From the NCBI GenBank assembly GCA_012513005.1, contig JAAZCZ010000109.1:1-37770 (forward strand): a DNA stretch of 37,770 nt. The letters are read 5' to 3'. Position 1 is the stretch's first letter. Each line of letters starts with the position of its first letter. The notes under the pieces were generated by a model. That model did no database searches. It worked only from the letters and a program-made list of their open reading frames with translations, and was not told the origin of the DNA. The stretch is from Oscillospiraceae bacterium (GTDB lineage Bacteria > Bacillota > Clostridia > Oscillospirales > Oscillospiraceae). Shown in pieces: positions 16,960-33,345 of this stretch. Both the position numbers and the translations under genes were made by a program.

Positions 16960-17802
16960 TTATTTCACCAAATTAAGGGCATTAACGACTGCAGTAGCGC
17001 AGTCATCTGTCTTTATTGCAGTAAGCGGAACGTTGATACCGCTTTTATTAAGTTCATAAAGCAATTTTGTAGTAGCGGGTACAGAAAGTCCCTCAGACCA
17101 TAAAAGATCAGCATCGGCGAAAACATCGCTAGGTACGCCGTCTGCCACCACCTTGCCCTCAGATAAAACTATAAGTCTGTCTGCATCAACACACTCGGAC
17201 ATATGATGTGTAATAAGCAAAACAGTTATACCCTTTTCCCTGCAAAGCCGAGATACAGTCGAAACAACTTCACGCCTGCCTATGGGGTCTAACATAGCAG
17301 TAGGCTCATCTAAAACAATGCAGTCAGGCTGCATGGCAAGAATACCTGCAATTGCAACCCTCTGCTTTTGCCCGCCGGAGAGCAGGTGAGGGGCGTGCAT
17401 ACGATACTCATACATGCCGACAGTTTTTAGTGCATCGTCAACTCTGCGCCTTATTTCTTCAGGCTCAACACCTAAATTCTCGGGAGCAAAGGCAACATCA
17501 TCCTCAACAAGATTTGCAACTATCTGGTTATCGGGATTTTGAAAGACAAGTCCGACAGTGCGCCTAAGTTCAAGTGTGCGCTCTTTGTCTGCGGTGTCAA
17601 TTCCTGAGACAGTGACTTTTCCGTCACTGGGGAGCAGTATGGCGTTTAAAAGCTTTGCCAAGGTAGACTTCCCGGAGCCGTTATGCCCCAAAACAGCAAC
17701 AAAGCTGCCGCGTTCTATTTCAAGGTCAATGCCGCAGAGTGTGGGAATCTCATCTCCGGGATATGTAAAATGTAGATTTTCTATTTTAATTATCTTATCC
17801 AT
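16960..17802 (-). CDS. ecfA1: ECF transporter ATPase EcfA1
   Basis: AVLGHNGSGKSTLAKLLN, LSGGQKQRVAIAGILAMQPDCIVLDEPTAMLDPIGR. Confidence 0.94.
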   Translation of the reverse strand: MDKIIKIENLHFTYPGDEIPTLCGIDLEIERGSFVAVLGHNGSGKSTLAKLLNAILLPSDGKVTVSGIDTADKERTLELRRTVGLVFQNPDNQIVANLVEDDVAFAPENLGVEPEEIRRRVDDALKTVGMYEYRMHAPHLLSGGQKQRVAIAGILAMQPDCIVLDEPTAMLDPIGRREVVSTVSRLCREKGITVLLITHHMSECVDADRLIVLSEGKVVADGVPSDVFADADLLWSEGLSVPATTKLLYELNKSGINVPLTAIKTDDCATAVVNALNLVK

Positions 17803-18650
17803 CGCATACTGGCTCCACATGGTAATATAAGGCCGCTACTAGTGCAGGTTAGCCCCAATTCGCGGCTTTCGGATCTGCCTCCAAAACGCTTAATAAATAT
17901 GCTGTCGCTTATATATGTAAGAGTACTCGGGGATAGCCCGGTGGTGTAGGAATTAATAAGCACAAAAAGAGGATCATCCGACAAAAGCTGTGCACAGAGT
18001 GAAACAAAGCCCCAAAGATTATCCTCCAAACGCCAAACCTCACCCGAAGGTCCGCGCCCGTAGCTGGGCGGGTCCATAATTATTGCATCGTATTTATTGC
18101 CGCGTCTTATTTCTCGCTCAACAAACTTAATACAGTCATCAACAATCCACCTGACAGGCATCTCGGCAACACCGCTCGATGCGGCATTCTCCTTTGCCCA
18201 GTTAACCATACCCTTAGCAGCGTCCACGTGGCAGACAAAAGCCCCGGCAGACAACGCCGCAACAGTAGCGGCACCCGTGTATGCAAAGAGATTTAAAACC
18301 TTTATTTCTCGTTTAGCAGAGCTAATCGTGCGCCTTATAAAATCCCAGTTAACAGCCTGCTCAGGAAAAAGACCCGTGTGCTTAAAGTTCATAGGCTTAA
18401 CATTAAAACTAAGTTTGTCATAGGAAATCTTCCAAGATTTGGGAAGATCCTTCTTAACCCAAGCGCCGCCGCCCTTGTCACTGCGTGAATATGCAGCATC
18501 ATAGCTCTTCCAGCGTTTGTCTTTTTTTTCGGTATTCCAAATGACCTGAGGATCCGGACGCACAAGTATCTGACTGCCCCAGCGCTCGAGTCTCTCGCCG
18601 CCGCTGCAATCTATAAGCTCATAATCCTGCCATTTATCCGAAATCCACAT
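17790..18650 (-). CDS. Class I SAM-dependent methyltransferase (RlmI/COG1092-like)
   Basis: VLNLFAYTGAATVAAL SAM motif and IIMDPPSYGRG catalytic motif; overlaps ecfA1 start. Confidence 0.85.
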   Translation of the reverse strand: MWISDKWQDYELIDCSGGERLERWGSQILVRPDPQVIWNTEKKDKRWKSYDAAYSRSDKGGGAWVKKDLPKSWKISYDKLSFNVKPMNFKHTGLFPEQAVNWDFIRRTISSAKREIKVLNLFAYTGAATVAALSAGAFVCHVDAAKGMVNWAKENAASSGVAEMPVRWIVDDCIKFVEREIRRGNKYDAIIMDPPSYGRGPSGEVWRLEDNLWGFVSLCAQLLSDDPLFVLINSYTTGLSPSTLTYISDSIFIKRFGGRSESRELGLTCTSSGLILPCGASMRWIR

Positions 18651-18676: not shown

Positions 18677-19489
18677 TTACTTTGCAAAGTGCCAGAGCGC
18701 AGACTTATAAACCAGTATGCAGTCAACCTTTGCCGTGTCAAGTGACTGAAAACACGCTCTTGCACCGCCCTGCATTCGCTGTATGGCACCCAGCCTGTCT
18801 CTTAAATCCTCGTCTGCATTAATAATATCAAGAAAATACTGACCGGAGTCCATAGCAAGGGTTGCGCCCTTCAATTTCCTAACAGAACGGAACCTATTAT
18901 CATCCCGCACAACCAAAACCAAGCCCTGCTCCATATAGGGGAAAACGGTGGTGTATTGTTTAGAACCGATATCAAGCGCCAAACCGCCCCAAGCAACATC
19001 AATATTGCCGGAGGAAAGCTCAACATAGGCGTTTTCAGCCTTAATGGGAATAAACTCAATCTTCCATCCGAGTCTGTAACAGACATCTCGAGCAAGGTCA
19101 ACATCAAAGCCTCTAAACTGATCTCTTTCCTTGTATGCCATAGGAAATGCGTCAATATCAACGCCGACTATCAAAGTGCGTTTAGGCACGGTTTTAATCT
19201 TCGCCATAGCCTCTTTATCAGCGGGTATAGAAACAGGGTCATGCCCAAACCAGTGCAGGGCATTATTATGCACTGTGCCGTCAGCTGCCGATGCCTGCAA
19301 AGCCGCCATAACATAATAGCGGACGATATCATCGTTTCTAAAACCTATGGCAAGCTGCTTTGTCTCATAGGATTTTAGTATTCTAAACCTGCCGTGTCTC
19401 TCCCCGGCGCTGCACGCAGTAAGAGAAAAAAGCAGTATAGTAACGAGAAATATGCAAATAGCCTTGCTTAGCCTATTCAAGTGTTTCAC
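18677..19489 (-). CDS. Lipoprotein with amino-acid-type periplasmic-binding (SBP_bac_3) domain in apparent circularly permuted order
   Basis: GTG start with RBS ttgggag; signal peptide with lipobox LTACSAG; C-terminal-type SBP segment (YETKQLAIGFRND..AALQASAADGTVHNNALHWFG) precedes the N-terminal-type lobe (RTLIVGVDIDAFPMAYKE..FRGFDVDLARDVCYRLG..). Confidence 0.88.
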   Translation of the reverse strand: MKHLNRLSKAICIFLVTILLFSLTACSAGERHGRFRILKSYETKQLAIGFRNDDIVRYYVMAALQASAADGTVHNNALHWFGHDPVSIPADKEAMAKIKTVPKRTLIVGVDIDAFPMAYKERDQFRGFDVDLARDVCYRLGWKIEFIPIKAENAYVELSSGNIDVAWGGLALDIGSKQYTTVFPYMEQGLVLVVRDDNRFRSVRKLKGATLAMDSGQYFLDIINADEDLRDRLGAIQRMQGGARACFQSLDTAKVDCILVYKSALWHFAK

Positions 19490-19587: not shown

Positions 19588-19617
19588 AAAAAAGCACGCT
19601 GCATTTTAGCAGCGTGC
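19588..19617 (-). terminator. Rho-independent terminator downstream of NSS transporter
   Basis: GCACGCTGC-N6-GCAGCGTGC stem; minus-strand U-run (AAAAAAA on +) follows. Confidence 0.85.
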
Positions 19618-19630
19618 CAAAGTATTATTC

Positions 19631-21417: not shown

Positions 21418-21969
21418 TTGAACTACGAAATTGATTTAGCGGGATTAAAAAGAGAGCTACCACTGTGCAAAGTAACAGATGACCTTTACATAGGGGCATT
21501 TGTAATGTTCGGGGATGTAGAGCTAACAGTTCACTGCGCCAAGATGCTCTTAGAAAAAGCGCCGGAATACGATTATCTGATAGCACCGGAAGCCAAGGCA
21601 ATTCCGCTTGTGTACGAAATGGCAAGGCAGTCCGGGGCTGAAAAATATTTCATAGCCCGCAAAGGTGCCAAGGCGTATATGCAGGGAGTCTTTGAGGTTG
21701 AGGTAAGGTCAATTACAACTATGCATATTCAAAAGCTTGTGATAGACGAGGCTGATGCAAGGTTTATAAACGGCAAAAGAATGCTAATTATAGACGATGT
21801 AATATCAACAGGAGAATCACTAAATGCAATGGAAACTCTGGTAAAAAAAGCAGGCGGCACCGTAGCCGGCAAAATGGCAGTATTAGCCGAGGGAGATGCA
21901 AAAAACAGAGACGACATAATAACCTTAGCACACCTGCCCGTATTTAATAAGGACGGCAGCGTAATTTAA
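21418..21969 (+). CDS. Adenine-type phosphoribosyltransferase family protein (TTG start)
   Basis: PRPP-binding motif MLIIDDVISTGESLNAM; gggagg RBS. Confidence 0.82.
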   Translation: MNYEIDLAGLKRELPLCKVTDDLYIGAFVMFGDVELTVHCAKMLLEKAPEYDYLIAPEAKAIPLVYEMARQSGAEKYFIARKGAKAYMQGVFEVEVRSITTMHIQKLVIDEADARFINGKRMLIIDDVISTGESLNAMETLVKKAGGTVAGKMAVLAEGDAKNRDDIITLAHLPVFNKDGSVI

Positions 21970-21994
21970 TCAATATAATTTTATATCTAAACAC

Positions 21995-22030
21995 AAAACC
22001 GAAATGCTCTGAGCATTTCGGTTTTACTAA
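21995..22030. terminator. Bidirectional terminator between convergent genes
   Basis: AAAACCGAAATGCTC-T-GAGCATTTCGGTTTT, 15-bp perfect inverted repeat. Confidence 0.88.
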
Positions 22031-22064
22031 TATTGGATATTAATATGTTTTTATATTTGAAGTT

Positions 22065-22559
22065 TTAGCGTTTTTTATCCCGCAGCTTATTAAAAAACTC
22101 AGAAAGAAGCTTTGCAGACTCCTTCGCCAAAACACCGCCGTAAATTTTGGGTTTGTGCCCGAAATTCTCTTCAAAGAGATTAATCACAGAGCCGCAGGCG
22201 CCGGAATAAGACTCCTTTGCCCCGTAAACAAGCCTGCTTATGCGAGAATTTATTATAGCACCTGCGCACATGCAGCAGGGCTCTAATGTAACAAACATAG
22301 TGCAGCCGGATAAATCCCAACTGCCCCGATAGGCGCAGGCATTTCTAATAGCCTCAATTTCGGCATGGGCGCAGGCATCAGGTATTTCCTCCCTGCGGTT
22401 TCGCCCTTCACCGATTATTGCACCATTTTCATCGCAGATTACGCAGCCGACGGGAACTTCCCCGGCGGCAGCAGCCTCACCTGCCAAAGCCAAGGCAGAT
22501 TTCATATAATCTTCAAAGCAAAGCGGCAAGCTGCCGCTATTTTCAGTGATGTGAGTCAT
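22065..22559 (-). CDS. tadA: tRNA-specific adenosine deaminase
   Basis: HAEIEAI, TLEPCCMCAGAI catalytic motifs, SRLVYGAK. Confidence 0.93.
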   Translation of the reverse strand: MTHITENSGSLPLCFEDYMKSALALAGEAAAAGEVPVGCVICDENGAIIGEGRNRREEIPDACAHAEIEAIRNACAYRGSWDLSGCTMFVTLEPCCMCAGAIINSRISRLVYGAKESYSGACGSVINLFEENFGHKPKIYGGVLAKESAKLLSEFFNKLRDKKR

Positions 22560-23364
22560 TTTTCAAAATATTAACATCCATATGCGGATAGGCAAATGAA
22601 AGCTCTGAATTTTCAATCCTGTTTAGAAGACTCTCGTTAAGTGCAAAATATGCATCCCAGTAATCAGCAGGGCGAACCCATGCTCTGAGGCAATATTTAA
22701 CAGAGCTGTCTAAAAACTCTGTGATAAGCACAACGGGGGGCTTAGAATCAGAAAGCAGTTTTTCAGAAGCAGCAGCGTCAAGCAAAACCTCTCGCACACG
22801 CTCGGGTTTACAGCCATATTCTAGTGTAAGAGCAATATCAATCCTACGCAGATGCTCTGCTGAAAAGTTAATTACATTTGATGAGCAAACCGAGGCGTTG
22901 GGGATATTAATTTTCTTATTGTCAGGGGTCAAGAGTGTGGTATAAAAAAAGCCGATTGTTGTAACAGAACCGGATGTGCCGGCTATTTCTACATAATCAC
23001 CTGAAATAAAGGGCTTTGTCATCAGAATAGTAAAGCCTGAAAACACATTCGAGAGTATATTCTGCATAGAAAGTGAAAGTGCAAGACCTACAACAGAAAG
23101 GGAAGCAACAAGAGTAGCCGAGGGTATGCCCAGCGTGTCAGTTAGAATAAGCAGAACGATAACCCACAAAAATACCTTGACTCCGGAATACGCAAAGCCC
23201 TGAATAACCGAGTCAAATTTCGACTTTTTCAAAGTAGCCTTAATAAATTTCAGCAAAAAGTGAATAACAATAACACTAACAACAAGTGTCAGCAAAGCAG
23301 AAAGCAGAGTCTCAACCTTAAAATTGCCGGCCGAGGTATTCATTAGCTCCTTAATCTTTTCCAT
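22543..23364 (-). CDS. MscS-family small-conductance mechanosensitive channel
   Basis: SLSVVGLALSLSMQNILSNVFSGFTILMTKPFISGDYVEI TM3/beta-domain signature. Confidence 0.95.
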   Translation of the reverse strand: MEKIKELMNTSAGNFKVETLLSALLTLVVSVIVIHFLLKFIKATLKKSKFDSVIQGFAYSGVKVFLWVIVLLILTDTLGIPSATLVASLSVVGLALSLSMQNILSNVFSGFTILMTKPFISGDYVEIAGTSGSVTTIGFFYTTLLTPDNKKINIPNASVCSSNVINFSAEHLRRIDIALTLEYGCKPERVREVLLDAAASEKLLSDSKPPVVLITEFLDSSVKYCLRAWVRPADYWDAYFALNESLLNRIENSELSFAYPHMDVNILKNDSHH

Positions 23365-31553: not shown

Positions 31554-32039
31554 TTGAGTATAAAGCTTATCAAAGTAGGAGAAATAGCAGGTGCACACGG
31601 TGTGCAGGGAGAGGTAAAAATATTCCCGCACTGCGACTCGGTAGAGTTTTTGCAGGGCTTTAAAGAATTTTATATAGACGAAAAAAAGTATGCAGTGTCC
31701 GCTTCACGCAGGCACAAGGGCATGCTTTTGGCATTTTTAGAAGGAATAAACAGCAGAGACGATGTTGTTGCCATTTTAGGCAAAAGCGTGTTTATTAACA
31801 GGGCGGATGCCGACTTACCCGAGGGCAGCTTCTTTATTGAAGAAATAATAGGGGCTTCGGTAGTAGAAGAAAACGGCAATAAAATCGGCACACTAAAAGA
31901 AGTGATAGACGGAGTTTCGGGCTTTATATATGTAGTTAAAGGAAAAAAAGAGCACTTAATTCCGGCTGTACCGGAATTTGTTTTAAGCACGGATGCCAAG
32001 GAAAAGATCATAACAGTCAGGCTGATTGAAGGCATGTGA
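31554..32039 (+). CDS. rimM: Ribosome maturation factor RimM (TTG start)
   Basis: IKVGEIAGAHGVQGEVKIFPHCD; PRC-barrel region. Confidence 0.94.
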   Translation: MSIKLIKVGEIAGAHGVQGEVKIFPHCDSVEFLQGFKEFYIDEKKYAVSASRRHKGMLLAFLEGINSRDDVVAILGKSVFINRADADLPEGSFFIEEIIGASVVEENGNKIGTLKEVIDGVSGFIYVVKGKKEHLIPAVPEFVLSTDAKEKIITVRLIEGM

Positions 32040-32061
32040 ACAAAGACCAAAGAGGATTAAT

Positions 32062-33345
32062 ATGAAATACAGAGTAGACTTTTTAACGCTCTTTCCGAGC
32101 AGCATAGAGGCGATGATGGGCAAGAGCATAATAGGCAGGGCTGCAGAAGCCGGAACAATAGAGCTTGGCTACACTCAAATAAGAGATTATAGCGAGAATA
32201 AACAGATGCAGGTAGACGACTACCCCTATGGGGGCGGTTGGGGGCTTGTTATGAATGCACAGCCCTTAAAATCAGCATTGGACAGCATAAAAAATATAAG
32301 CACAAACAGAAAAACAAGAGTAATTTACCTCTCGCCCTGCGGCAGTGTTTTTAATCAGCAGCACGCGAAGAGGCTAAAAAATGACTATGATCACCTTGTT
32401 TTAATATGTGGTCATTACGAGGGCATAGACGAACGCTTTATTAATGCTTGTGTTGACGAGGAAATAAGCCTCGGAGACTTTGTATTAACCGGCGGCGAAA
32501 TTGCCGCAATGGCAGTTGCCGACAGTGTTTTGCGCCTTGTAGACGGAGTCTTGGCAGATGAGGAATGTTACACAGGAGAGAGCCATTGGGACGGGCTTTT
32601 GGAATATCCTCAGTACACCAGACCCGAGGTCTGGGAGGGCAGGCAAGTGCCGCCTGTGCTGCTCGGTGGAAATCATGAAAAAATATGCAAATGGCGCACC
32701 TTGCAGCAGATACATAGAACAAAAACAAGAAGAGCGGATATGTTCGCAAAATTCAAAGCTTCGGATGAATTCCAAAAAAATGCAGTAGAAAAGCTTTCAG
32801 GTAAAAAGCCCAAAAGACCTGAATTTATATGCCGAAGGGCAGAAAAATCCGACTTAGACGCAATAATGAATATAAAAAACCAGGCAAGCGAGCGACTAAA
32901 AGAAGCGGGCGTTATGCAGTGGCAAAACGGCACCCCGACAAAAGAGCTTTTTATTGAAGATATAGACACGGGCAGCGGCTGGATATTTGAAGAAAACGGC
33001 AACCCTGCCGGATATTTAAGTGTAAAAACAGATAAGGACACAGACTACGAAAAATATAGCAGCATTTGGCCCGGAGTAGAAGGTAGCTATATCGCCGTTC
33101 ACAGGATTATGACATCAAATGATTATGTAAACCTAGGCCTAGCCTCGGAGATGCTGGAATTTGCTGAGGATATCTGCCGTGGGATGGGCAGAGGGAGTGT
33201 GAGAATAGACACACACAGAGATAATAAGGCGATGCTTGCACTACTAAACAAAAATGATTATGTAAACTGCGGCTCAATAGAGCTTGACATACCGGAAAAA
33301 AACGACAGGATGAGGGAGGCGTTTTGCAAGCTGCTATGGAGCTGA
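32062..33345 (+). CDS. trmD: TrmD tRNA (guanine-N1-)-methyltransferase fused to C-terminal GNAT acetyltransferase domain
   Basis: TrmD: VDFLTLFPSSIEAMMGKSIIGRA, SPCGSVFNQQHAKRL, ICGHYEGIDERF, SLGDFVLTGGE; GNAT: FICRRAEKSDLDAIMNIKNQA..HRIMTSNDYVNLGLASEMLEFAEDICR..SVRIDTHRDNKAMLALLNKNDYVNCG, one uninterrupted frame. Confidence 0.92.
   Translation: MKYRVDFLTLFPSSIEAMMGKSIIGRAAEAGTIELGYTQIRDYSENKQMQVDDYPYGGGWGLVMNAQPLKSALDSIKNISTNRKTRVIYLSPCGSVFNQQHAKRLKNDYDHLVLICGHYEGIDERFINACVDEEISLGDFVLTGGEIAAMAVADSVLRLVDGVLADEECYTGESHWDGLLEYPQYTRPEVWEGRQVPPVLLGGNHEKICKWRTLQQIHRTKTRRADMFAKFKASDEFQKNAVEKLSGKKPKRPEFICRRAEKSDLDAIMNIKNQASERLKEAGVMQWQNGTPTKELFIEDIDTGSGWIFEENGNPAGYLSVKTDKDTDYEKYSSIWPGVEGSYIAVHRIMTSNDYVNLGLASEMLEFAEDICRGMGRGSVRIDTHRDNKAMLALLNKNDYVNCGSIELDIPEKNDRMREAFCKLLWS

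Follow-up and report, generated by a model that had tools for sequence, protein, structure and literature searches.

The lipoprotein gene at positions 18677-19480 (-) of the window, by which we mean the whole 37,770-nucleotide stretch of Oscillospiraceae DNA analyzed here (GCA_012513005.1, contig JAAZCZ010000109.1, positions 1 to 37,770), almost certainly encodes a naturally circularly permuted SBP_bac_3 lipoprotein (amino-acid class, type-II SBP). A preliminary description of this DNA had proposed such a permutation, and the proposal is borne out by swapped versus rotated profile matches and by AlphaFold modeling. Judged from sequence comparison, the C-terminal segment (~50 residues, from just before hinge 2) is relocated ahead of the N-terminus, and the lipid anchor sits on the new N-terminus, directly before the last strand of lobe 2. 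We consider an account that joins permutation to an origin by duplication and to an accessory role highly likely to be the best overall explanation.

Translation confirmed the open reading frame (267 aa, TTG start, lipobox LTAC); an alternative GTG start at 19489, the one taken in the preliminary description, would give 270 aa. The signal peptide and lipobox (19415..19480, (-)) run from the TTG start through MNRLSKAICIFLVTILLFSLTA to the Cys, and a lipobox is also present in all homologs. Immediately behind the Cys comes RFRILKSYETKQLAIGFRNDD...DGTVHNNALHWFGHD, followed by a linker and by KTVPKRTLIVGVDIDAFPMAYKE...; the last residues are TAKVDCILVYKSALWHFAK. The displaced C-terminal module (mature residues 9-59; 19238..19390, (-)), delimited by a C-terminal profile match and by AlphaFold elements, contains the last strand of lobe 2, hinge strand 2 and two C-terminal SBP helices. 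A short linker between the former C- and N-termini, as had been described, follows as a gap between two HMM domains (~17 residues, about mature 60-77; 19184..19237, (-)); its sole secondary structure in the AlphaFold model is a short helical turn at 70-72. The canonical N-terminal part (start of lobe 1, hinge 1 and lobe 2; 18680..19183, (-)) corresponds to positions 2-160 of the 231 in the native-order profile and stops at the point where ordinary SBPs run on into hinge 2. After the stop codon (18677..18679, (-)), a SAM-dependent methyltransferase gene (Pfam Methyltrans_SAM; 17790..18650, (-)), which neighbors the permuted SBP in many genomes, adjoins with its ATG at a distance of 26 bp rather than the 27 bp first given. 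Elsewhere in the window, positions 32026-33345 encode a TrmD-type tRNA methyltransferase fused to a GNAT acetyltransferase domain.

The N-terminal segment (RFRILKSYETKQLAIGFRNDD...ALHWFGHD) of the window protein is homologous to the segment with which ordinary SBPs end. In a phmmer comparison with 3hv1, the best match among solved structures, residues 100-257 aligned with chain positions 20-181 and residues 37-82 with positions 205-251, i.e., in swapped order, the latter piece being weak taken alone. Pfam SBP_bac_3 (PF00497, which in its present release is a shortened model of 132 positions) gave one match of 68.2 bits against a gathering threshold of 26.4, covering model positions 1-98 within the canonical N-terminal part. 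Twelve ordinary SBPs from related genomes were aligned, the alignment was divided at the position that corresponds to the ends of the window protein, and four HMMs were made from it: native-order, rotated, A-part and B-part (C-terminal). E-values refer to a set of 30 sequences. The native-order profile gave two swapped domains, and the rotated profile a single collinear domain, in 17 of 17 sequences of the first homolog set, with ordinary SBPs showing exactly the reverse behavior. The window protein itself gave no collinear N-to-C match to the full-length profile; its match to the rotated profile was a single domain (137 bits, E = 9e-43), in agreement with the earlier observation that the chain ends where other SBPs would continue and that rejoining its termini restores a standard SBP. 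The resemblance of the post-lipobox region to the end of amino-acid SBPs was likewise recovered, as the B-part profile alone matched the N-terminus of the window protein (mature residues 21-59, E = 1.4e-6) and of the homolog L017 (E = 1.7e-25). None of the listed PDB chains matched the permuted profile in one stretch from the N-terminal part onward.

AlphaFold, run on a 17-sequence homolog alignment, yielded a model that is confident throughout (pLDDT 92.4, pTM 0.88). This extends to the moved segment (block means 91-98 over residues 11-60), which shows the hinge strand (E10-21) and two helices (H31-44, H47-56) expected of an SBP C-terminus; a single-sequence run was useless (pLDDT 36). All modules are present, in rotated order, within one confident fold. 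Neither of the two outcomes that the preliminary description would have counted as a refutation was obtained. Top matches in Foldseek, which is sequential only, were all amino-acid SBPs, with ~165 collinear residues of 245 and a TMq of ~0.5, a partial alignment of the kind that a permuted order predicts. We infer that the protein keeps a Venus flytrap fold that would be tethered to the membrane via lobe 2 instead of lobe 1. That the gene instead encodes a truncated or chimeric SBP, with an unrelated domain or assembly artifact in the N-terminal 60 residues and the true C-terminus missing, is extremely improbable. Such a reading could draw on the weak phmmer piece and on the genomes involved being mostly MAGs, but it is already refuted by the C-terminal profile, which alone matches the N-terminus of every homolog (E 1e-6 to 1e-25), and by the repetition of the order in many independent assemblies, on contigs of several hundred kb. 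The frame is, moreover, under selection (dN/dS), and AlphaFold is confident through the disputed segment.

Distribution, operon context and a second breakpoint

A scan of genome contigs with the single window sequence returned no matches; a profile scan returned 548 relatives, the best 80 of which include Candidatus Scatomorpha and many uncultured Oscillospiraceae, many of them from ruminant, chicken and other guts. The permuted order also occurs in full-length homologs from 10 congeneric genomes (42-48% identity), from a further five genera within the family, and from one more family belonging to the order. A homolog search for a conserved family recovered the permuted full-length order in at least 74 of 301 family genomes (profile search; tandem fusion excluded). 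The excluded protein (G148, L085) had been classed as permuted by the profile search and is actually a tandem fusion, and a long ORF suspected to be a tandem SBP (G015, L052; 491 aa) is actually a native SBP with an upstream frame extension. Among ~400 genomes across the phylum, the hits outside the order at E ≤ 1e-48 comprised native SBPs and one tandem fusion; weaker or type II permutants could escape this threshold.

Permuted genes recur in an operon of the form SBP1-permease-ATPase-SBP2, often followed by methyltransferase and ECF genes as in the window. The SBP2 is type I permuted in every case, and the SBP1 position is occupied by a native, type I or type II protein, or by the tandem fusion in G148. 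Beyond this family but within the order, complete ABC operons have no SBP other than the permuted one, whose gene lies directly before the permease and ATPase (L244-L254, L260). The window protein falls inside the SBP2 clade in trees. Most of its genus relatives are encoded downstream of a permease and ATPase; the window gene is preceded by a sodium:neurotransmitter-type symporter gene and then by a terminator-like hairpin (19593..19618, (-); 10-bp stem and T tract, consensus match only), which suggests that the permuted SBP gene may form a separate transcription unit. It does not adjoin an amino-acid ABC operon, and the ABC genes downstream are ECF (vitamin-type) ATPases. A first census detected no ABC gene directly upstream of 28 of 73 SBP2-type genes, some of which lie near contig ends. 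Within the sequences compared, the permuted order is conserved in the genus and family of the window and the gene is under purifying selection (dN/dS 0.15-0.30 in close SBP2 pairs); hence, the SBP2 gene is functional. Two irregular loci were also observed. At L113 (3928-4833), the gene for a type I permuted SBP that precedes a permease is split into two ORFs, as a pseudogene or through a sequencing error, and a contig of the window's genome (G000:C20, 22820 bases) carries the same native SBP match inverted at both ends (222-875 and 21946-22599), probably an assembly effect.

A second breakpoint was found in 12 unique proteins (e.g., L029/L051, L086-L094, L126 and L128; type II permutation, as in L051 5734-6573), which start after hinge 1 and end with hinge 1. 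All 12 are encoded by the first gene of an ABC operon, before a permease. In types I and II alike, the new N-terminus and with it the lipid anchor have passed from lobe 1 to lobe 2. Permuted proteins also tend to have a shorter tether from the Cys to the profile match, mostly 0-19 residues versus 16-41 in ten sampled native proteins, and selection may act on re-anchoring or on a shorter tether.

Origin of the permuted order

Trees were built from rotated sequences in quick mode, with constraint groups set by topology and gene position rather than taken from the tree. The permease-associated type I proteins branched at several separate points within the native SBPs, and the type II proteins at two. 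Several permuted proteins share with native proteins 70-80% identity over the A part and 60-71% over the B part. The clearest cases are L260, L050 and the larger type II group, in which the A and B parts trace to one native lineage; for L138, L130 and L099, the B part is closest to a neighboring native lineage instead.

Permutation by duplication predicts fused tandem copies (PMC3320104). Three SBP-SBP fusions were found: L085 (3413-5092, 560 aa), L225 (1309-2892, 528 aa) and L257 (595-2955, 787 aa, including a permease domain). In the tree, ten permuted proteins form a clade whose sister is L225 (98*), and several other permuted proteins have L257 as their best match. A likely route to the rearrangement is tandem duplication followed by trimming, in which in-frame duplication of an SBP gene would give A-B-A-B and loss of the first A and last B would leave the permuted B-A order.

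A history with only one permutation event, in which the mix of native and permuted proteins reflects later reversals or paralog sorting, would accommodate the SBP2 proteins, which form one group (support 94-95), and also the parsimony result, since the nine native/permuted switches are counted without direction. We regard it as improbable: a single clade was rejected by the AU test for all type I proteins (p = 3e-39), for permease-associated type I proteins (3e-69) and for type II proteins (9e-6), and permuted proteins such as L260 are nested inside native clades (A part 74-75% and B part 64-70% identical to one and the same native lineage). Since reversals would need the same duplication-deletion process, switching was recurrent in either case. 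There is similarly little to recommend fission and fusion, rather than tandem duplication and trimming, as the source of the new order. SBP lobes are compact and halves of binding proteins can fold alone (cf. PMC9815098), but no split SBP halves were seen except in the frame-broken L113, and the tandem fusions occur in three separate lineages. Taken together, circular permutation has probably arisen independently several times within one order, at two classes of breakpoint that both take the anchor out of lobe 1 and into lobe 2, with tandem intermediates still extant, and was possibly selected for re-anchoring.

Ligand pocket of the window copy

Pocket columns were assigned from the ligand-contact positions of GlnBP. 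In the 24 permuted SBPs with a permease next to them, the equivalents of D10, F50 (W here), G68, K115 (Q here) and D157 are invariant, R75 is R or K, and T70 is T or S; these proteins, among them sole SBPs of complete operons, thus retain the amino-acid ligands. Among the 132 SBP2 proteins, R75 is mostly E, D or S, and T70, F13 and F50 are replaced. The window protein carries F13A, F50A, T70A, R75S and D157Y and therefore lacks the Arg/Thr carboxylate and Asp ammonium residues of an alpha-amino-acid receptor. By this residue comparison, the window copy has lost the positions that hold the alpha-carboxylate and alpha-ammonium groups of an amino acid, which makes an accessory or re-purposed binder, not an ordinary receptor, most likely. 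The chance that it serves as an accessory protein binding some other ligand, or partners an amino-acid importer without delivering substrate to it, is about even; its position apart from any ABC operon, with the symporter gene and terminator upstream, leaves the link to an importer indirect. An ordinary amino-acid receptor with unusual pocket chemistry is unlikely, although the Asp10 and Gly68 equivalents are kept and Asp157 is retained in 103 of 132 SBP2 proteins, since the window protein is without the Arg, Thr, aromatic and Asp157 positions and since, within the genus, few columns vary more than those of R75, T70 and K115 (percentile 0.86-0.98).

Relation to known permuted binding proteins

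Permuted SBPs are already known. The preliminary description knew of no described example; in other families, examples include TpMglB-2 and betaine-binding proteins. Our literature search, which covered few subscription papers, returned no account of a permuted protein in SBP_bac_3, of a second breakpoint or of recurrent permutation, and CIRPIN (PMC12667903) makes no mention of such SBPs. Natural circular permutation is usually inferred from distant pairs, whereas here native, tandem and permuted receptors coexist at 60-77% identity and share one operon type, with repeated, convergent switches. The model of permutation by duplication is therefore directly testable in this group, and recurrent permutation, if true, would amount to a naturally replicated experiment in protein topology. 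The results also raise the question of whether ABC import depends on which lobe of the SBP bears the anchor. Pfam, Foldseek and other sequential models and searches cover permuted receptors in part only.

The Treponema glucose-binding lipoprotein TpMglB-2 (Tp0684), classified as "Type Ic / Cluster Bc", is a naturally permuted SBP (PMC4990184). It resembles the window family in being a permuted, lipid-anchored ABC-importer SBP with homologs in Gram-positive gut bacteria, and its ligand binding and closure are retained (PMC4990184). Unlike the window family, it has a Type I (sugar, cluster B) fold in which the first three N-lobe strands have moved to the C-terminus, and it was described as one topological class and not as a repeated event. 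The window protein does not belong to this class, as all of its structure and sequence matches are to SBP_bac_3 amino-acid SBPs. A circular permutation relationship also exists among SBPs that include the glycine-betaine-binding proteins ProX/OpuAC and molybdate-binding proteins (CPSARST, PMC2395249). As in the window family, this permutation lies within a two-domain, molybdate-binding-like fold, but it is ancient and recognizable from structure only, at <24% identity versus the 60-77% between native and permuted forms here. GlnPQ-type transporters, with tandem SBDs fused to a permease, are similar to L257 in combining two SBPs and a permease in one chain, and represent the duplicated state, not the permuted one. 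Canonical SBP_bac_3 proteins (GlnBP, ArtJ, HisJ, 3hv1 and AncQR) have the same predicted fold, sequence modules and ABC operon partners as the window family and differ from it in the order of the modules.
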